64,000 nucleotides of DNA, from NCBI GenBank assembly GCA_013388835.1, contig JACAEL010000044.1:1-64000 (forward strand), written 5' to 3'. This document shows, in pieces, positions 3,141 through 51,003 of the stretch. How positions within the stretch are numbered: position 1 is the first letter of the stretch; the number at the start of each line of letters is the position of its first letter. The stretch comes from Candidatus Thorarchaeota archaeon (lineage in GTDB: Archaea > Asgardarchaeota > Thorarchaeia > Thorarchaeales > Thorarchaeaceae). The translations under genes and the position numbers were made by a program. The notes under the pieces are model-generated. The model was not told where the DNA came from and searched no databases. It saw only the letters and a list, made by a program, of their open reading frames with translations.

Positions 3141-4168
3141 CACTTGGGCACCTCCCTTGCAGACAGCGCTTGTGAAACAGTCAGGACATTGATGTCCACG
3201 GGACATGTGTCTACGCATCGTCCACATCCCACACAGGAGGGACGACCGTACTCCTTCCCGAAGGTCTTCAGCTTGTGCGTGTACCAGAGCTTCAGTCGAT
3301 CGGCTCTAGTGGCCCTGAAGTTGTGACCTCCAGCAACCAGACTGTAGTCTACAAACATGCAGCTGTCCCACATCCTCTCGCGTCGTCCACTCACCTTGTT
3401 GCTCACGTCTAGCACATCGGTGGTGTCATAGCAGTTACACGTTGGACAGACCATGGAACACTGGCCACAAGAGAGGCACTTCTTACCGAACTGCTCCCAT
3501 ATCTCCGAGTTGTAGCTGAGCTCCATCAAGTCTGGCATGTTACGAAAGGCGAAGGACTTCTTGAACGCCAAGTTCCTCTTCTCTCGCCAGGCAACATACT
3601 TGGCGATGTCTTCGTGTGTGACCTCGTCCTCGAAGAACTCATCATGGCACAGGATCATGTCATGGCCGAGACTTGACCCAACCCATACCAGGTAGAACTG
3701 GTCCAGGTCAATGAAGAACAGGTCGTATCCTTCCTCTACTATGTCGGTCCCGGTGGAAGTGCAGAGCGAGTTCTCAGTAGGCATGCAGGAGAAACCGAGG
3801 ATTGCACTGTTGTGCCTCAGTTGTGAGTAGTACGGGTCCGGAGGGTCGGCCATGAAGACATCGTCAAGTCGGAGAAGACTGTGAATCTCACACGGGTGAA
3901 CTCCAATTATCACCCGCTTCTCCACCATCGAGTAGTCAGGCTGAAAACCAGACTCGCCAAACCTGAACATGTCGAACTTCATCGGGTGAAAGAGCTTCTT
4001 GATGGGTATCAGAGGATGCTCATCAGAAAAGACAGCTTCACTGATGCTCTCTATGGGACCATACGTCAGGACTCCATTCTTCCTGACTGGAGCGTAGAGC
4101 CTGCCGAACTGCCCCAAGCACTCAAGGAAAGGCTCGAGGAACTTCTTGTACATCTTGATGATGCGCAC
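3140..4168 (-). CDS. hydB: sulfhydrogenase beta subunit, 4Fe-4S protein
   Basis: This iron-sulfur subunit bridges the flavin subunit and, in sulfhydrogenases, is associated with sulfur or polysulfide reduction. Two ferredoxin-type cluster motifs lie in the C-terminal half: CLSCGQCSMVCP and CVGCGRCVDTCP. It is the first gene of the operon. The GTG at 4168 has AGGTG about 8 bases upstream. The ATG at 4153 is an alternative without such a site. The length of 342 residues matches the family. Together the four genes encode a complete heterotetramer. Confidence 0.9.
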   Translation of the reverse strand: MRIIKMYKKFLEPFLECLGQFGRLYAPVRKNGVLTYGPIESISEAVFSDEHPLIPIKKLFHPMKFDMFRFGESGFQPDYSMVEKRVIIGVHPCEIHSLLRLDDVFMADPPDPYYSQLRHNSAILGFSCMPTENSLCTSTGTDIVEEGYDLFFIDLDQFYLVWVGSSLGHDMILCHDEFFEDEVTHEDIAKYVAWREKRNLAFKKSFAFRNMPDLMELSYNSEIWEQFGKKCLSCGQCSMVCPTCNCYDTTDVLDVSNKVSGRRERMWDSCMFVDYSLVAGGHNFRATRADRLKLWYTHKLKTFGKEYGRPSCVGCGRCVDTCPVDINVLTVSQALSAREVPK

Positions 4169-5217: not shown

Positions 5218-6780
5218 CTAATCTACCTGTTCACGGTCATCCTCAGCGCATGTGTCCTTTTTCTCTTGATGTCCCATCCGTTTCAGAGCGACCTTGATAG
5301 AAGACAACGGGACAGAGATGGAGTGGCGTAGTCCGTCAACAGTGGAGAGTGTCTTGACGTTCCTTCGGGTCTCAGACACAATGGCCTCTATGACCATCTT
5401 CTCATCGACCTCGCCGGTCTCCTTGACAAGTGCGAGGCGATGGAGAGCGTAGAAGCCCAGTAGAGCGGATCCAACGAACACAAAGTCCAGCCCAGTCAGG
5501 TCCAGCTTGATTGGGATGTGCCAGTCAGGGTGGGTCGGGTCAGTGCCACTGATAAGGTCGAAACCCATGCTGAGCGTCTTGTCTGCAAGCAACGTCGCTA
5601 ATACACCACCTACAAGCGGTGCGACAAGGCCGGCCACCGCTATTGCAATCCCTCGCGCAGCAAGATACGACTGTGCCTCGCCACGAGGCGCCAACTTCAG
5701 GCCAATGTTACTGGAAGTGAGGTTCACTCCTGCAGCAGAGATTCCGGTTATGATATGAATCAGCAGCAGAAAGGGGATTAGGGCTGGTGTGCCCTTCGCA
5801 TACTTGGACAGCACCCACAAGAAGGTACCTAGCATGAAGAGAGGGACAGTGACAAGAAGAACCGACTTATTAGAGAACCTGTCTGAGAGTCGTCCCCAAA
5901 ATCGGAGGAAGAGTATGCTCATCACCTGAGTCGAAGCAGACAGGGCCGTGGCAACTGGCAGTCCCACATTCAGTAGGCTTCCGTCGAGTAGATACACCGC
6001 AAAGAACGGAGCAGCGAGAGCTGTGCTGAAGCTCCATGTCGCGGAGAAGAGCATGAGGTTCCTGAAGTTCTCGTCCCGGTAGGGCTCTCCCAGAAGGCTT
6101 GAGAAGCTTGGTCTTGGTCCCGGAGGAGCCATCTCCGGCTCTGGAAGCACATGGATGTAGTAGACTGTAATCACACCAACGGCGAAGGCGGTGACAAAGA
6201 GCACGCTGTAGGCATATGCGGGAGGTCCCACATTCAGAGCGTTCCACACGCCGACGAAGTAGCCACCGAGGAGTGACACAATCACGGCCACGACAGCTCC
6301 GATGGTCATGCGCTTTGAGAAGAAGACGCCCATCCGGTCCTGAGGCACCAGGTCTCTGAGCCATGAGTTCCAGCTTGGCGAGCCAATGGCTACGAACATG
6401 GCTTGCACACCGACAAGGACCGTGAAGAGAAGGACGCCCAGCTCAGACGTCGATATGAATGGGATGAGAGCCATGAACAGGATTGCAATCCTGCTGGACA
6501 GGATCGTGTAGACGTTGATGGGCTTTCTCGTCTTGTATTTGACGGTCAGGTAGAGGGCGGGGACTTGAGCCAGCTGCGAAAAGGACGGGATTGCTGCGAG
6601 AATCCCGATGACGTACACAGGAGCCCCCAGCAGTATGGCGAATCCAATGAGGAAGACGCCCTCTGTGAGCGTAAGCTTGACCTGGCTGACCACCATGATC
6701 TTCAGCAGTGTCCGCAGAGCGAACTCAGTATCATCCTGTGAGAGTGCCTTTGGTTCGGGCTCCAAGTCGGACTCCTCCAT
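5218..6780 (-). CDS. MFS-type permease
   Basis: This is a polytopic membrane protein of about 520 residues with roughly twelve hydrophobic segments in two halves separated by a cytoplasmic loop. The layout is typical of the major facilitator superfamily. The segment WLRDLVPQDRMGVFFSKR after the fourth or fifth helix resembles the conserved loop between helices in efflux-type members. The substrate is unknown. The frame opens at a TTG (6819), but the ATG at 6780, giving MEESDLEPEP, is preferred. The C-terminal tail of about 80 residues is charged and probably cytoplasmic. Confidence 0.8.
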   Translation of the reverse strand: MEESDLEPEPKALSQDDTEFALRTLLKIMVVSQVKLTLTEGVFLIGFAILLGAPVYVIGILAAIPSFSQLAQVPALYLTVKYKTRKPINVYTILSSRIAILFMALIPFISTSELGVLLFTVLVGVQAMFVAIGSPSWNSWLRDLVPQDRMGVFFSKRMTIGAVVAVIVSLLGGYFVGVWNALNVGPPAYAYSVLFVTAFAVGVITVYYIHVLPEPEMAPPGPRPSFSSLLGEPYRDENFRNLMLFSATWSFSTALAAPFFAVYLLDGSLLNVGLPVATALSASTQVMSILFLRFWGRLSDRFSNKSVLLVTVPLFMLGTFLWVLSKYAKGTPALIPFLLLIHIITGISAAGVNLTSSNIGLKLAPRGEAQSYLAARGIAIAVAGLVAPLVGGVLATLLADKTLSMGFDLISGTDPTHPDWHIPIKLDLTGLDFVFVGSALLGFYALHRLALVKETGEVDEKMVIEAIVSETRRNVKTLSTVDGLRHSISVPLSSIKVALKRMGHQEKKDTCAEDDREQVD

Positions 6781-47458: not shown

Positions 47459-47477
47459 TGGCGGGCCAGGGGGGACT

Positions 47478-47507
47478 TCTAGGCCAACAGCTAGGAACTA
47501 GCTGATG
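47478..47507 (-). other. tRNA-Lys intron 3 (T loop), 30 nt
   Basis: The intron contains a perfect 7-bp hairpin, CAGCTAG/CTAGCTG with loop TTC. Exon TTC (54-56) can pair with GAA near the 3' site. Cutting between 57 and 58 (or 56 and 57) gives T loop TTCAAGT. The exact boundary is ambiguous by one base. Confidence 0.75.
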
Positions 47508-47527
47508 TGAACCCCCGACCAACAAGT

Positions 47528-47559
47528 CTCTCTTCCCCACAGCACAGGACTGTGGAGCG
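47528..47559 (-). other. tRNA-Lys intron 2 (37/38), 32 nt
   Basis: CTCCACAG pairs with CTGTGGGG inside the intron. Exon CTCT (32-35) pairs with intron AGAG, with 3-base bulges on each side next to the anticodon stem ACAGG/CTTGT. This is a canonical bulge-helix-bulge at the canonical site. Confidence 0.85.
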
Positions 47560-47575
47560 TAAGAGCCTGTCGCTA

Positions 47576-47604
47576 TCGGCGGCGTGAGCCGTCGCTCTTG
47601 CCAA
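47576..47604 (-). other. tRNA-Lys intron 1 (D loop), 29 nt
   Basis: The insert separates A21 from the 3' half of the D stem. It holds a hairpin (GGC/GCC and GAGC/GCTC). Without its removal the D stem GCTA/TAGC cannot close. The flanking bulge-helix-bulge is weak, so the cut sites could shift by one base. Confidence 0.7.
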
Positions 47605-47626
47605 TACCTGGCTTAGCCACTGGCCC

Positions 47627-47946
47627 GCATTTCAGTTTGTGTTCCGCTTCCAGTTATAGAGATTTCGGAGCGCACGGGTCTGTTGCACAAGTCAGACGTT
47701 GAATTCCCATGGTTGAAATTGAAGCAGGGAGTGGCTCTAGTGTCCATGCTCGGTGCAAATCAAGCAATGCTGGTTCCTCTTCCGACTCCGGACTTGATTT
47801 CTGCAACAGAGCTGGAATGCGCGACACCGCCATAAGCTGAGTTGTTCATCTGATGGCGCACCTCCACAAATGCCACCAGAGATTCCGCCGGGCGTGGATA
47901 ATGCCTGGATTGGATCGTCTGCCATCAGAGGGGCTTCGGCCAGATA
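47627..47946. other. intergenic region upstream of tRNA-Lys
   Basis: It contains the tRNA-Lys promoter region (TATA-like element near 47651-47660). Otherwise I see no convincing gene. A short minus-strand frame (47737-47925) has mixed, cysteine-rich composition and no recognisable domain. Confidence 0.4.
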
Positions 47947-48921
47947 CTACGTTGACAGTCGGCTGAGTCGTGAGATTACGTCTTCAGCCTCAGCCATCAC
48001 TCTGTCCAGCAGTTCCCTGACTGTGGGAATGTCTCTCACCAATCCCACGCCCTGTCCACAGGCGACCACTCCAAGGTCAATGTCGCCGTTCCTGTACATC
48101 TCCTCGGCCTTGTCACCAGCAGCCACTTGAATGAGCTTGAAGAGTGGGGCACCTTGTGACTCCAGTTCCAATAGACGCTGTGCTGCGCCGTTCTTCCACA
48201 CCCTGTGAGTATTGCCGACAGAACGCAGGACCAAGCATGTGTCAGTTTCTGCTGCTTTGACGAACGCTTGCTTGAGTTGATTGTGGATGGGGCACTCCTT
48301 CGTCGCCATCATCCTAGTGCCCATGATTACTCCTTCAGCACCCAATGCTAGGACTGCGGCCACACCACGTCCATCGGCCACTCCACCTCCGGCTATCACA
48401 GGTACGTCCACCGCGTCGACTACAGATGGCGTCATGACCAGCGTACCAATGTCCAGAGTACCAGTCGCACCACCGTTCTCATATCCGACGACTGTGATTA
48501 TGTCAGCACCAAGAGATGCCCCCTTCAGCGCATACCTCACACCAGCACACTTGTGAATCCAGATAGCACCGCTGTTCTTGAACTTGGGGACCAGTTCCTC
48601 AGGGGCCTTGTGCCCACTCGTCTCAATGACCTTCACGCCCTCAGCTATGGTAGCATCGACGTAGTCCTCCAGCTTATCTTGAGGCATGAGTGCTGGAAAC
48701 AGATTGATGTTGACTGCGAATGGTTGGCTAGTGAGAGACCGCGTCCGCTGGATTGCATCACGCAGGTCATCCGGTGACCTGTAGTTCGCGCTGGCCAATA
48801 CTGCGCAAGCACCAGCATTACTGGCTGCTGCGACGAACTCGGGATTAGATATTCTCGCCATGGTCCCAGCAACAATCGGATACTTGCAGCCCAACATCTC
48901 AGTTACTCTGGTCTTGATCAT
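47947..48921 (-). CDS. nitronate monooxygenase/FabK-like FMN enzyme
   Basis: A TIM-barrel flavoprotein of the 2-nitropropane dioxygenase family. It begins RVTEMLGCKYPIVAGTMARISNPEFVAAASNAG. Phosphate-binding segments for FMN are VIAGGGVADGRGVAAVLALGAEGVIMGTRMMA, and GYENGGATG lies in the middle. Length 324 is standard. It could detoxify nitronates or act as an enoyl reductase, and the sequence does not decide. It is monocistronic. Confidence 0.85.
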   Translation of the reverse strand: MIKTRVTEMLGCKYPIVAGTMARISNPEFVAAASNAGACAVLASANYRSPDDLRDAIQRTRSLTSQPFAVNINLFPALMPQDKLEDYVDATIAEGVKVIETSGHKAPEELVPKFKNSGAIWIHKCAGVRYALKGASLGADIITVVGYENGGATGTLDIGTLVMTPSVVDAVDVPVIAGGGVADGRGVAAVLALGAEGVIMGTRMMATKECPIHNQLKQAFVKAAETDTCLVLRSVGNTHRVWKNGAAQRLLELESQGAPLFKLIQVAAGDKAEEMYRNGDIDLGVVACGQGVGLVRDIPTVRELLDRVMAEAEDVISRLSRLST

Positions 48922-49680: not shown

Positions 49681-51003
49681 TTGAGCGAGCACAAGAAACT
49701 CTACGACAAGGTGTTTGACCTAATCGAGAAGCATGACAACTGGATGACGAGGACGATTAACCTGATTGCATCAGAGAATGTGTCCTCGCCAGCCGTGAGG
49801 TCAGCCATAGTGTCCGACTTCAGGGATCGATATGCGGAGGGGTGGCCAGGAGAGCGTGTATATGCAGGCTGTACCTACATCGACGAGGTTGAGCTGATAT
49901 GTATCGACCTCGCCAAGAAACTCTTTCGTGCGGAGTTCGCAGACGTGCGCCCAGTCTCTGGGGTGGTTGCAAACCTAATGATGTATACAGCTGTCATGCA
50001 ACCAATGGACAGGATGATGGCCCTGTCAATCTCACACGGTGGCCACATATCCCACGCACGGGAGAACCTTGGCGGAACGGCCGGACAGATCAGAGGTCAC
50101 AAGGTCCAGAACTGGGAGTTCGATGAGAAGGAGTTCAACATCGATGTTGATGCAAGTCTGAAGAAGATTCGAGAACTCCACGAGGAGGGGAAGGATGTCA
50201 AGTTCCTGCTCTTTGGCGGTAGTGTCTTCTTGTTCCCGCATCCTGTAAGGGAATTTCGCGACATCGCCAGCGAATACGGACTGAAGATTGGATATGACTC
50301 GGCCCATGTGTCCGGACTGATTGCAGCCAACAGGTTCCAAGACCCGCTCAGGGAGGGTGCGGACGTGATGACTGCGTCAACCCACAAGACCATGCCTGGA
50401 CCACAGCATGGAATTGTGCTGGCCAAAACAGAGCTTGCAGACCAGCTCAAGCGTGCTGCGTTTCCGGGCCTTATGAGCAACCATCACCTTCACAACGTGG
50501 CGGGGCTTGCGGTGGCACTGGCTGAGATGACTGAGTTTGGTGAAGCCTACTGTGACCAGATACTGAAGAATGCAAGAGCACTTGCACAGGCCCTACATGA
50601 AAGAGGCTGGAGAGTGGTGGCTGAAGAGAAGGGGTTCACTCGTTCCCATCAGATTCTGGTGGACATCACAGAAACACCAATGAAAGACGGCCGGACAGTT
50701 GAAGAAGAACTGGAGAAGGCAAACATAATCATCAATAGGAACCTTCTGCCATGGGATCCAAAACGTGGTAGAGACTACAAGAGCCCTGGCGGCATCAGAC
50801 TTGGAGTGAGTGAGATGACGCGACTCGGTATGAAGGAGTCAGAGATGGATGCAATAGCCGAGTATATGCACCGGGTGGTGGTCAAGGGTGAGTCTGTGAA
50901 GAAGGTCGCAGATGAAGTCGCCCAATTCCGGAAGGAGTACCAGAAGGTGCACTTTGCGTTTGAGAGTTCAACACCCGCCTATGCGCACTTAAGATTCAGG
51001 TAG
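49681..51003 (+). CDS. glyA: serine hydroxymethyltransferase
   Basis: This PLP enzyme interconverts serine and glycine with transfer of a C1 unit to a tetrahydropterin. Signatures: NLIASENVSSPAVR, RYAEGWPGERVYAGC, SHGGHISHARENLGG, YDSAHVSGLIA and the PLP lysine in TASTHKTMPGPQHG (near residue 235). Length 440 fits archaeal SHMT. It starts at TTG 49681 with GGTG six bases upstream. Functionally it joins gcvT/gcvH and the pterin genes 7-10 kb downstream. Confidence 0.94.
   Translation: MSEHKKLYDKVFDLIEKHDNWMTRTINLIASENVSSPAVRSAIVSDFRDRYAEGWPGERVYAGCTYIDEVELICIDLAKKLFRAEFADVRPVSGVVANLMMYTAVMQPMDRMMALSISHGGHISHARENLGGTAGQIRGHKVQNWEFDEKEFNIDVDASLKKIRELHEEGKDVKFLLFGGSVFLFPHPVREFRDIASEYGLKIGYDSAHVSGLIAANRFQDPLREGADVMTASTHKTMPGPQHGIVLAKTELADQLKRAAFPGLMSNHHLHNVAGLAVALAEMTEFGEAYCDQILKNARALAQALHERGWRVVAEEKGFTRSHQILVDITETPMKDGRTVEEELEKANIIINRNLLPWDPKRGRDYKSPGGIRLGVSEMTRLGMKESEMDAIAEYMHRVVVKGESVKKVADEVAQFRKEYQKVHFAFESSTPAYAHLRFR

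Follow-up and report, generated by a model that had tools for sequence, protein, structure and literature searches.

A Thorarchaeota tRNA-Lys(CTT) gene of four exons and three small introns, with four-intron orthologs in two related genomes

Introduction

Intron-rich tRNA sets have been described in two Asgard lineages, the Atabeyarchaeia and Freyarchaeia. According to the report on them, supplements aside, 92-95% of their tRNA genes have introns, with more than half carrying several, often at non-canonical sites (PMC11291895). Multi-intron tRNA genes of the Thermoproteales hold up to three introns each (PMC4033280, PMC8450103), and introns in the D arm have been published for Aigarchaeota and Crenarchaeota (PMC3293823). 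Three is also the highest number of introns per archaeal tRNA gene that we located in the literature (PMC4033280, PMC8450103, PMC3293823); a search for archaeal tRNA genes with four returned only papers on organelles and eukaryotes, and the supplements of PMC11291895 may list one. Reviews tie two-subunit EndA enzymes to non-canonical introns (PMC4090602, PMC4033280).

Here we describe a tRNA-Lys(CTT) gene found in a 64,000-nt stretch of Thorarchaeota DNA (the window), part of a 3.0 Mb MAG (G000) in 125 contigs that is 97.6% complete. The gene, composed of four exons and three small introns, is a well-supported new case of a kind already reported in other Asgard lineages. Its relatives add four-intron orthologs, fast turnover of the introns, and an insert that interrupts the gene yet carries an intact copy.

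Results

Structure of the gene and its spliced product

A first-pass annotation of the window, made from the sequence alone, had proposed a tRNA-Lys(CTT) gene with three introns, one of them in the D arm. This core reading was right. No strand had been named; the gene runs on the minus strand, from 47626 to 47459 (Table 1). Read in that direction, the acceptor halves GGGCCAG and CTGGCCC pair and are accompanied by a G73 discriminator and an encoded CCA. The other described elements, namely D-stem halves GCTA and TAGC parted by 29 nt, a BHB (bulge-helix-bulge) at 37/38 and a 7-bp hairpin in the T loop, are likewise present in the sequence. Splicing had been predicted to restore a 77-nt tRNA with its conserved bases. 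When the three segments (29, 32 and 30 nt) were taken out in silico, the 77-nt form GGGCCAGTGGCTAAGCCAGGTATAGCGACAGGCTCTTAACTTGTTGGTCGGGGGTTCAAGTCCCCCCTGGCCCGCCA was obtained, which ARAGORN calls as tRNA-Lys(ctt) with conserved bases and anticodon complete.

Table 1. Features of the tRNA-Lys(CTT) locus and its surroundings in the window
Feature	Position	Strand	Basis or remark
Pre-tRNA-Lys(CTT) gene, 168 nt, CCA encoded	47459..47626	(-)	Sequence and covariance models
Exon 1, tRNA positions 1-22, 23 nt	47604..47626	(-)	Same sequence in most orthologs
D-arm intron, 29 nt, best register 22/23	47575..47603	(-)	BHB with 3/4 central and 3/5 inner pairs; absent in most orthologs
Exon 2, positions 23-37, contains anticodon CTT	47560..47574	(-)	
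Canonical anticodon-loop intron at 37/38, 32 nt	47528..47559	(-)	Full BHB, CUCU/AGAG central helix
Exon 3, positions 38-56	47509..47527	(-)	
T-arm intron, 30 nt, best register 56/57	47479..47508	(-)	BHB with 4/4 central and 4/5 inner pairs; absent in L030, L035, L041, L044, L045
Exon 4, positions 57-76 plus CCA	47459..47478	(-)	
Promoter-like BRE/TATA, CCGAAATCTCTATAAC	47653..47668	(-)	Conserved in nearly all orthologs, at a similar position
Serine hydroxymethyltransferase (SHMT) gene, divergent; synteny anchor, outside the tRNA	49681..51003	(+)	

In the standard BHB geometry of EndA substrates, a 4-bp central helix is accompanied by 3-nt bulges that are cut after the second base. Using this geometry, we scored each intron over 9 pairs (4 central and 5 inner). 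The 37/38 intron forms 4/4 central and 4/5 inner pairs, and the central helix is likewise complete at 56/57; the 22/23 junction is a relaxed BHB (3/4 central). The observed score was reached by 0.6% of shuffled introns for the 37/38 intron, 1.4% for the T-arm intron and 7% for the D-arm intron. Shifting the boundaries of the D-arm and T-arm introns by one or two bases leaves the product unchanged: registers 20/21 and 21/22 of the former and 57/58 of the latter yield the same tRNA. Since BHB geometry favours 22/23, the intron first assigned to the D loop probably sits immediately within the 3' D-stem strand.

Detection of the interrupted gene

The unspliced gene received no ARAGORN call and no Rfam match at the gathering score. 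The expectation that ordinary annotation overlooks it thus holds for these two tools; tRNAscan-SE 2.0 has a routine for such introns (PMC8450103). The first-pass annotation had also held that failure of covariance models to find a tRNA here would count against the gene, and the models do find it: one built from 11 relatives with the window gene left out (R2) matched exactly 47459-47626 on the minus strand (67.2 bits, E 1.9e-12). When 12 distinct mature sequences were aligned, every one of the 252 pair cells held a standard pair (100% paired), against 35-56% in slid controls, and 7 pairs were changed on both sides (0/500 shuffles).

Nearly frozen exons and labile introns among orthologs

We used the 168-nt gene to search the family's 47 genomes and obtained matches in 32. 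Thirty genes, the window gene among them, could be parsed fully; their exons are nearly invariant and their introns, 61 in total, are variable. These introns occupy the sites 22/23 (n = 4), 30/31 (n = 13), 37/38 (n = 14), 43/44 (n = 8), 53/54 (n = 4), 56/57 (n = 13), 58/59 (n = 3) and 59/60 (n = 2). A single intron is present in L030, L035 and L045 (37/38), in L041 (30/31) and in L044 (43/44), and four genomes have intronless Lys(ctt) genes (L136-L139, 104.5 bits). Where the D-arm and T-arm introns are lacking, the same exons are contiguous. Consequently, these natural intron-poor and intronless orthologs define the exon boundaries and the spliced product with no need to assume a fold. The window exons follow the family consensus in every letter but G59, which is A in nearly all relatives.

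A BHB of at least 7/9 pairs is formed by 55 of the 61 ortholog introns, compared with 3.8% of shuffles. At the 22/23 site, the introns of three other genomes (L042, L052 and L063) have a full 4-bp central helix, which backs the weak D-arm BHB of the window gene. By eye, the window D-arm intron is unlike the other 22/23 introns, and we claim no homology between them. We also asked whether the 22/23 intron arose only once: on a tree of the adjacent SHMT protein the site must change three times, and well-supported branches force two of these changes. The intron set of tRNA-Lys(CTT) changes quickly, and across the family introns are gained and lost at a small number of fixed sites. The 30/31 and 37/38 introns are mutually exclusive, occurring in 13 and 14 of the 30 genes with none having both; shared ancestry may explain this pattern.

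Four introns, at 22/23, 30/31, 43/44 and in the T arm, interrupt tRNA-Lys(CTT) in two genomes of one genus, G039 (L042:1329-1523(-)) and G038 (L052:1329-1523(-)), which are 96% and 99% complete. Both genes are 195 nt long and are matched over their full length by model R1, at 50.5 bits for L042 and 45.6 bits for L052. They have one intron more than the published maximum that we located, and this is the part of our results that exceeds the limits we located in print. G038 also has an intronless, bacterial-looking Lys(ctt) on another contig (L190, 45.9 bits against the clade model), which may be contamination.

In another relative (L106, G029:C435), an insert of about 7.5 kb, with a shared 4-bp core (TCGA), divides tRNA-Lys(CTT) into a 5' fragment at about 7627-7550(-) and a 3' fragment at about 60-1(-). 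When the flanks are joined, a perfect gene with two introns results. Within the insert are genes for an HNH nuclease and a Schlafen AlbA_2 protein, unknown ORFs and, at 5368-5534(+), an intact tRNA-Lys(CTT) with three introns. Decayed 5' fragments of tRNA-Lys(CTT) occur in L105 (G033:C244) and L107, at 1135, 2407 and 3181 in the former and at 3170 in the latter, all in reverse-complement coordinates; the contig of L105, too, encodes an HNH nuclease. These fragments are perhaps scars of repeated insertions.

Promoter, synteny and splicing proteins

Upstream of the gene, CCGAAATCTCTATAAC matches a BRE/TATA block (about ACCGCAATCTCTATAAACTG) found at about -42 to -27 in nearly all orthologs. The SHMT gene lies near the same tRNA gene in many relatives, mostly divergent as in the window, and the window SHMT protein shares about 75-85% identity with its counterparts in many Thorarchaeota MAGs, far more than with those of most other archaea. 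An ORF at 47947-48921(-) separates the tRNA and SHMT genes in the window; in several relatives the two are about 130-250 bases apart.

The genome encodes two EndA-family proteins (PF01974 twice) and one RtcB (PF01139, 597 bits). The C68 EndA protein is closest to an A. pernix catalytic subunit and keeps the Y, H (DHAPF) and K seen in 3P1Z; the C22 protein has Ser-Ala in place of the catalytic His. One subunit with the Tyr-His-Lys triad and one homolog without it is the make-up of (alpha-beta)2-type enzymes, from which a heterotetramer able to cut relaxed BHB motifs can be predicted.

Interrupted tRNA genes elsewhere in the genome

No second Lys(CTT) gene was detected in this 97.6% complete, 125-contig genome; a competing intact copy, with no transcript from this locus, had been named in the first-pass annotation as an objection to the gene. 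Because the MAG consists of 125 contigs, a second copy could possibly lie on missing DNA; it could also be too interrupted for detection. In the same genome, tRNA-Lys(TTT) (L021, G000:C22:22310-22480(-)) has three introns, at 30/31, 43/44 and 58/59, and introns in the D arm were called in six further tRNA genes (Pro-GGG, Arg-TCG, Arg-CCG, Arg-GCG, Ile-GAT and Gly-GCC). Those six calls came from a heuristic intron solver that allows one insertion per gene; it is sound for one-intron genes and was wrong for both three-intron Lys genes (CTT and TTT), which were resolved by alignment to orthologs. The view of the first-pass annotation that D-loop introns are uncommon even among intron-rich archaea fails in this lineage, given these six genes, the cases published for Aigarchaeota and Crenarchaeota (PMC3293823) and the account of multi-intron genes as the rule in other Asgard archaea, as far as PMC11291895 without its supplements describes it. 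Multi-intron tRNA genes are normal in this lineage.

Discussion

With a probability of about 0.95, we read the locus as a functional, and apparently the only, tRNA-Lys(CUU) gene of this genome, whose three BHB introns would be cut out by EndA, with RtcB joining the exons, and are evolutionarily labile. By all sequence evidence the locus is functional, and its splicing would proceed as follows. The gene's own BRE/TATA promoter would drive a 168-nt precursor; a two-subunit EndA (alpha plus a His-less beta) would cut the introns at 22/23, 37/38 and 56/57; RtcB would ligate the four exons into the 77-nt tRNA; and the mature tRNA-Lys(CUU) would decode AAG codons. The sequence, the structure left after removal of the segments, the conserved exons and promoter, the compensatory pairs and the presence of genes for the enzymes are shown directly; transcription, cutting, ligation and charging are what we infer for this tRNA.

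Two other readings were considered. The locus might be a decaying tRNA pseudogene broken by insertions, given that truncated 5' copies of the tRNA do occur in relatives (L105, L106 and L107) and that ordinary tRNA finders fail to recognise it. We regard this as very unlikely, because the exons follow the family consensus letter by letter save G59, the inserts are BHB-shaped and excise cleanly, the promoter is intact and this is the sole Lys(CTT) gene detected in the genome. Alternatively, only two introns would be removed, and the extra D-arm bases would be retained as a long D loop or an extra arm. Of the three BHBs, that of the D arm is indeed the weakest (3/4 central and 3/5 inner pairs, a score reached by 7% of shuffles), but 26 of the 30 orthologs lack those bases, the 22/23 introns of L042, L052 and L063 have the full central helix, and inserts in the D arm recur in six more tRNA genes of the same genome; retention is therefore extremely improbable.

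One syntenic gene with almost frozen exons and 0 to 4 introns across about 30 related genomes is a natural series for the gain and loss of BHB introns. Asgard tRNA introns also bear on the origin of eukaryotic tRNA introns and of their splicing endonuclease. In practical terms, tRNA counts of Asgard MAGs are too low where such interrupted genes escape detection. It is somewhat more likely than not that Thorarchaeota tRNA genes are the most heavily interrupted known, with up to four BHB introns in Lys(CTT) (L042/G039 and L052/G038), turnover at a small number of fixed sites in a single family, and at least one inserted element that splits the gene but brings along an intact copy interrupted in a different way.

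Among known systems, the Atabeyarchaeia and Freyarchaeia are alike in being Asgard archaea with intron-rich tRNA sets; they are, however, other Asgard lineages, and their report, supplements aside, describes neither a Thorarchaeota Lys(CTT) nor a four-intron gene (PMC11291895). The broad-specificity (alpha-beta)2 enzymes of Crenarchaeota resemble the host pair, a catalytic alpha and a beta without the catalytic histidine. In Caldiarchaeum, the same arms are interrupted (D, V and T-arm introns) and some genes are multi-intron, but the phylum is another and introns occur in 13/45 tRNA genes, three of them with several (PMC3293823). The tRNA-Ile(UAU) of the red alga Cyanidioschyzon merolae also has three introns, in the D, anticodon and T arms; this is a eukaryote, and we claim no sequence relationship (PMC9602550). 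The Thermoproteales share a two-subunit EndA and small BHB introns, which occupy both canonical and non-canonical sites (PMC4033280, PMC8450103), whereas here the host is an Asgard archaeon, introns are gained and lost in a single orthologous gene across about 30 genomes of one family, and in two relatives that gene has four introns.
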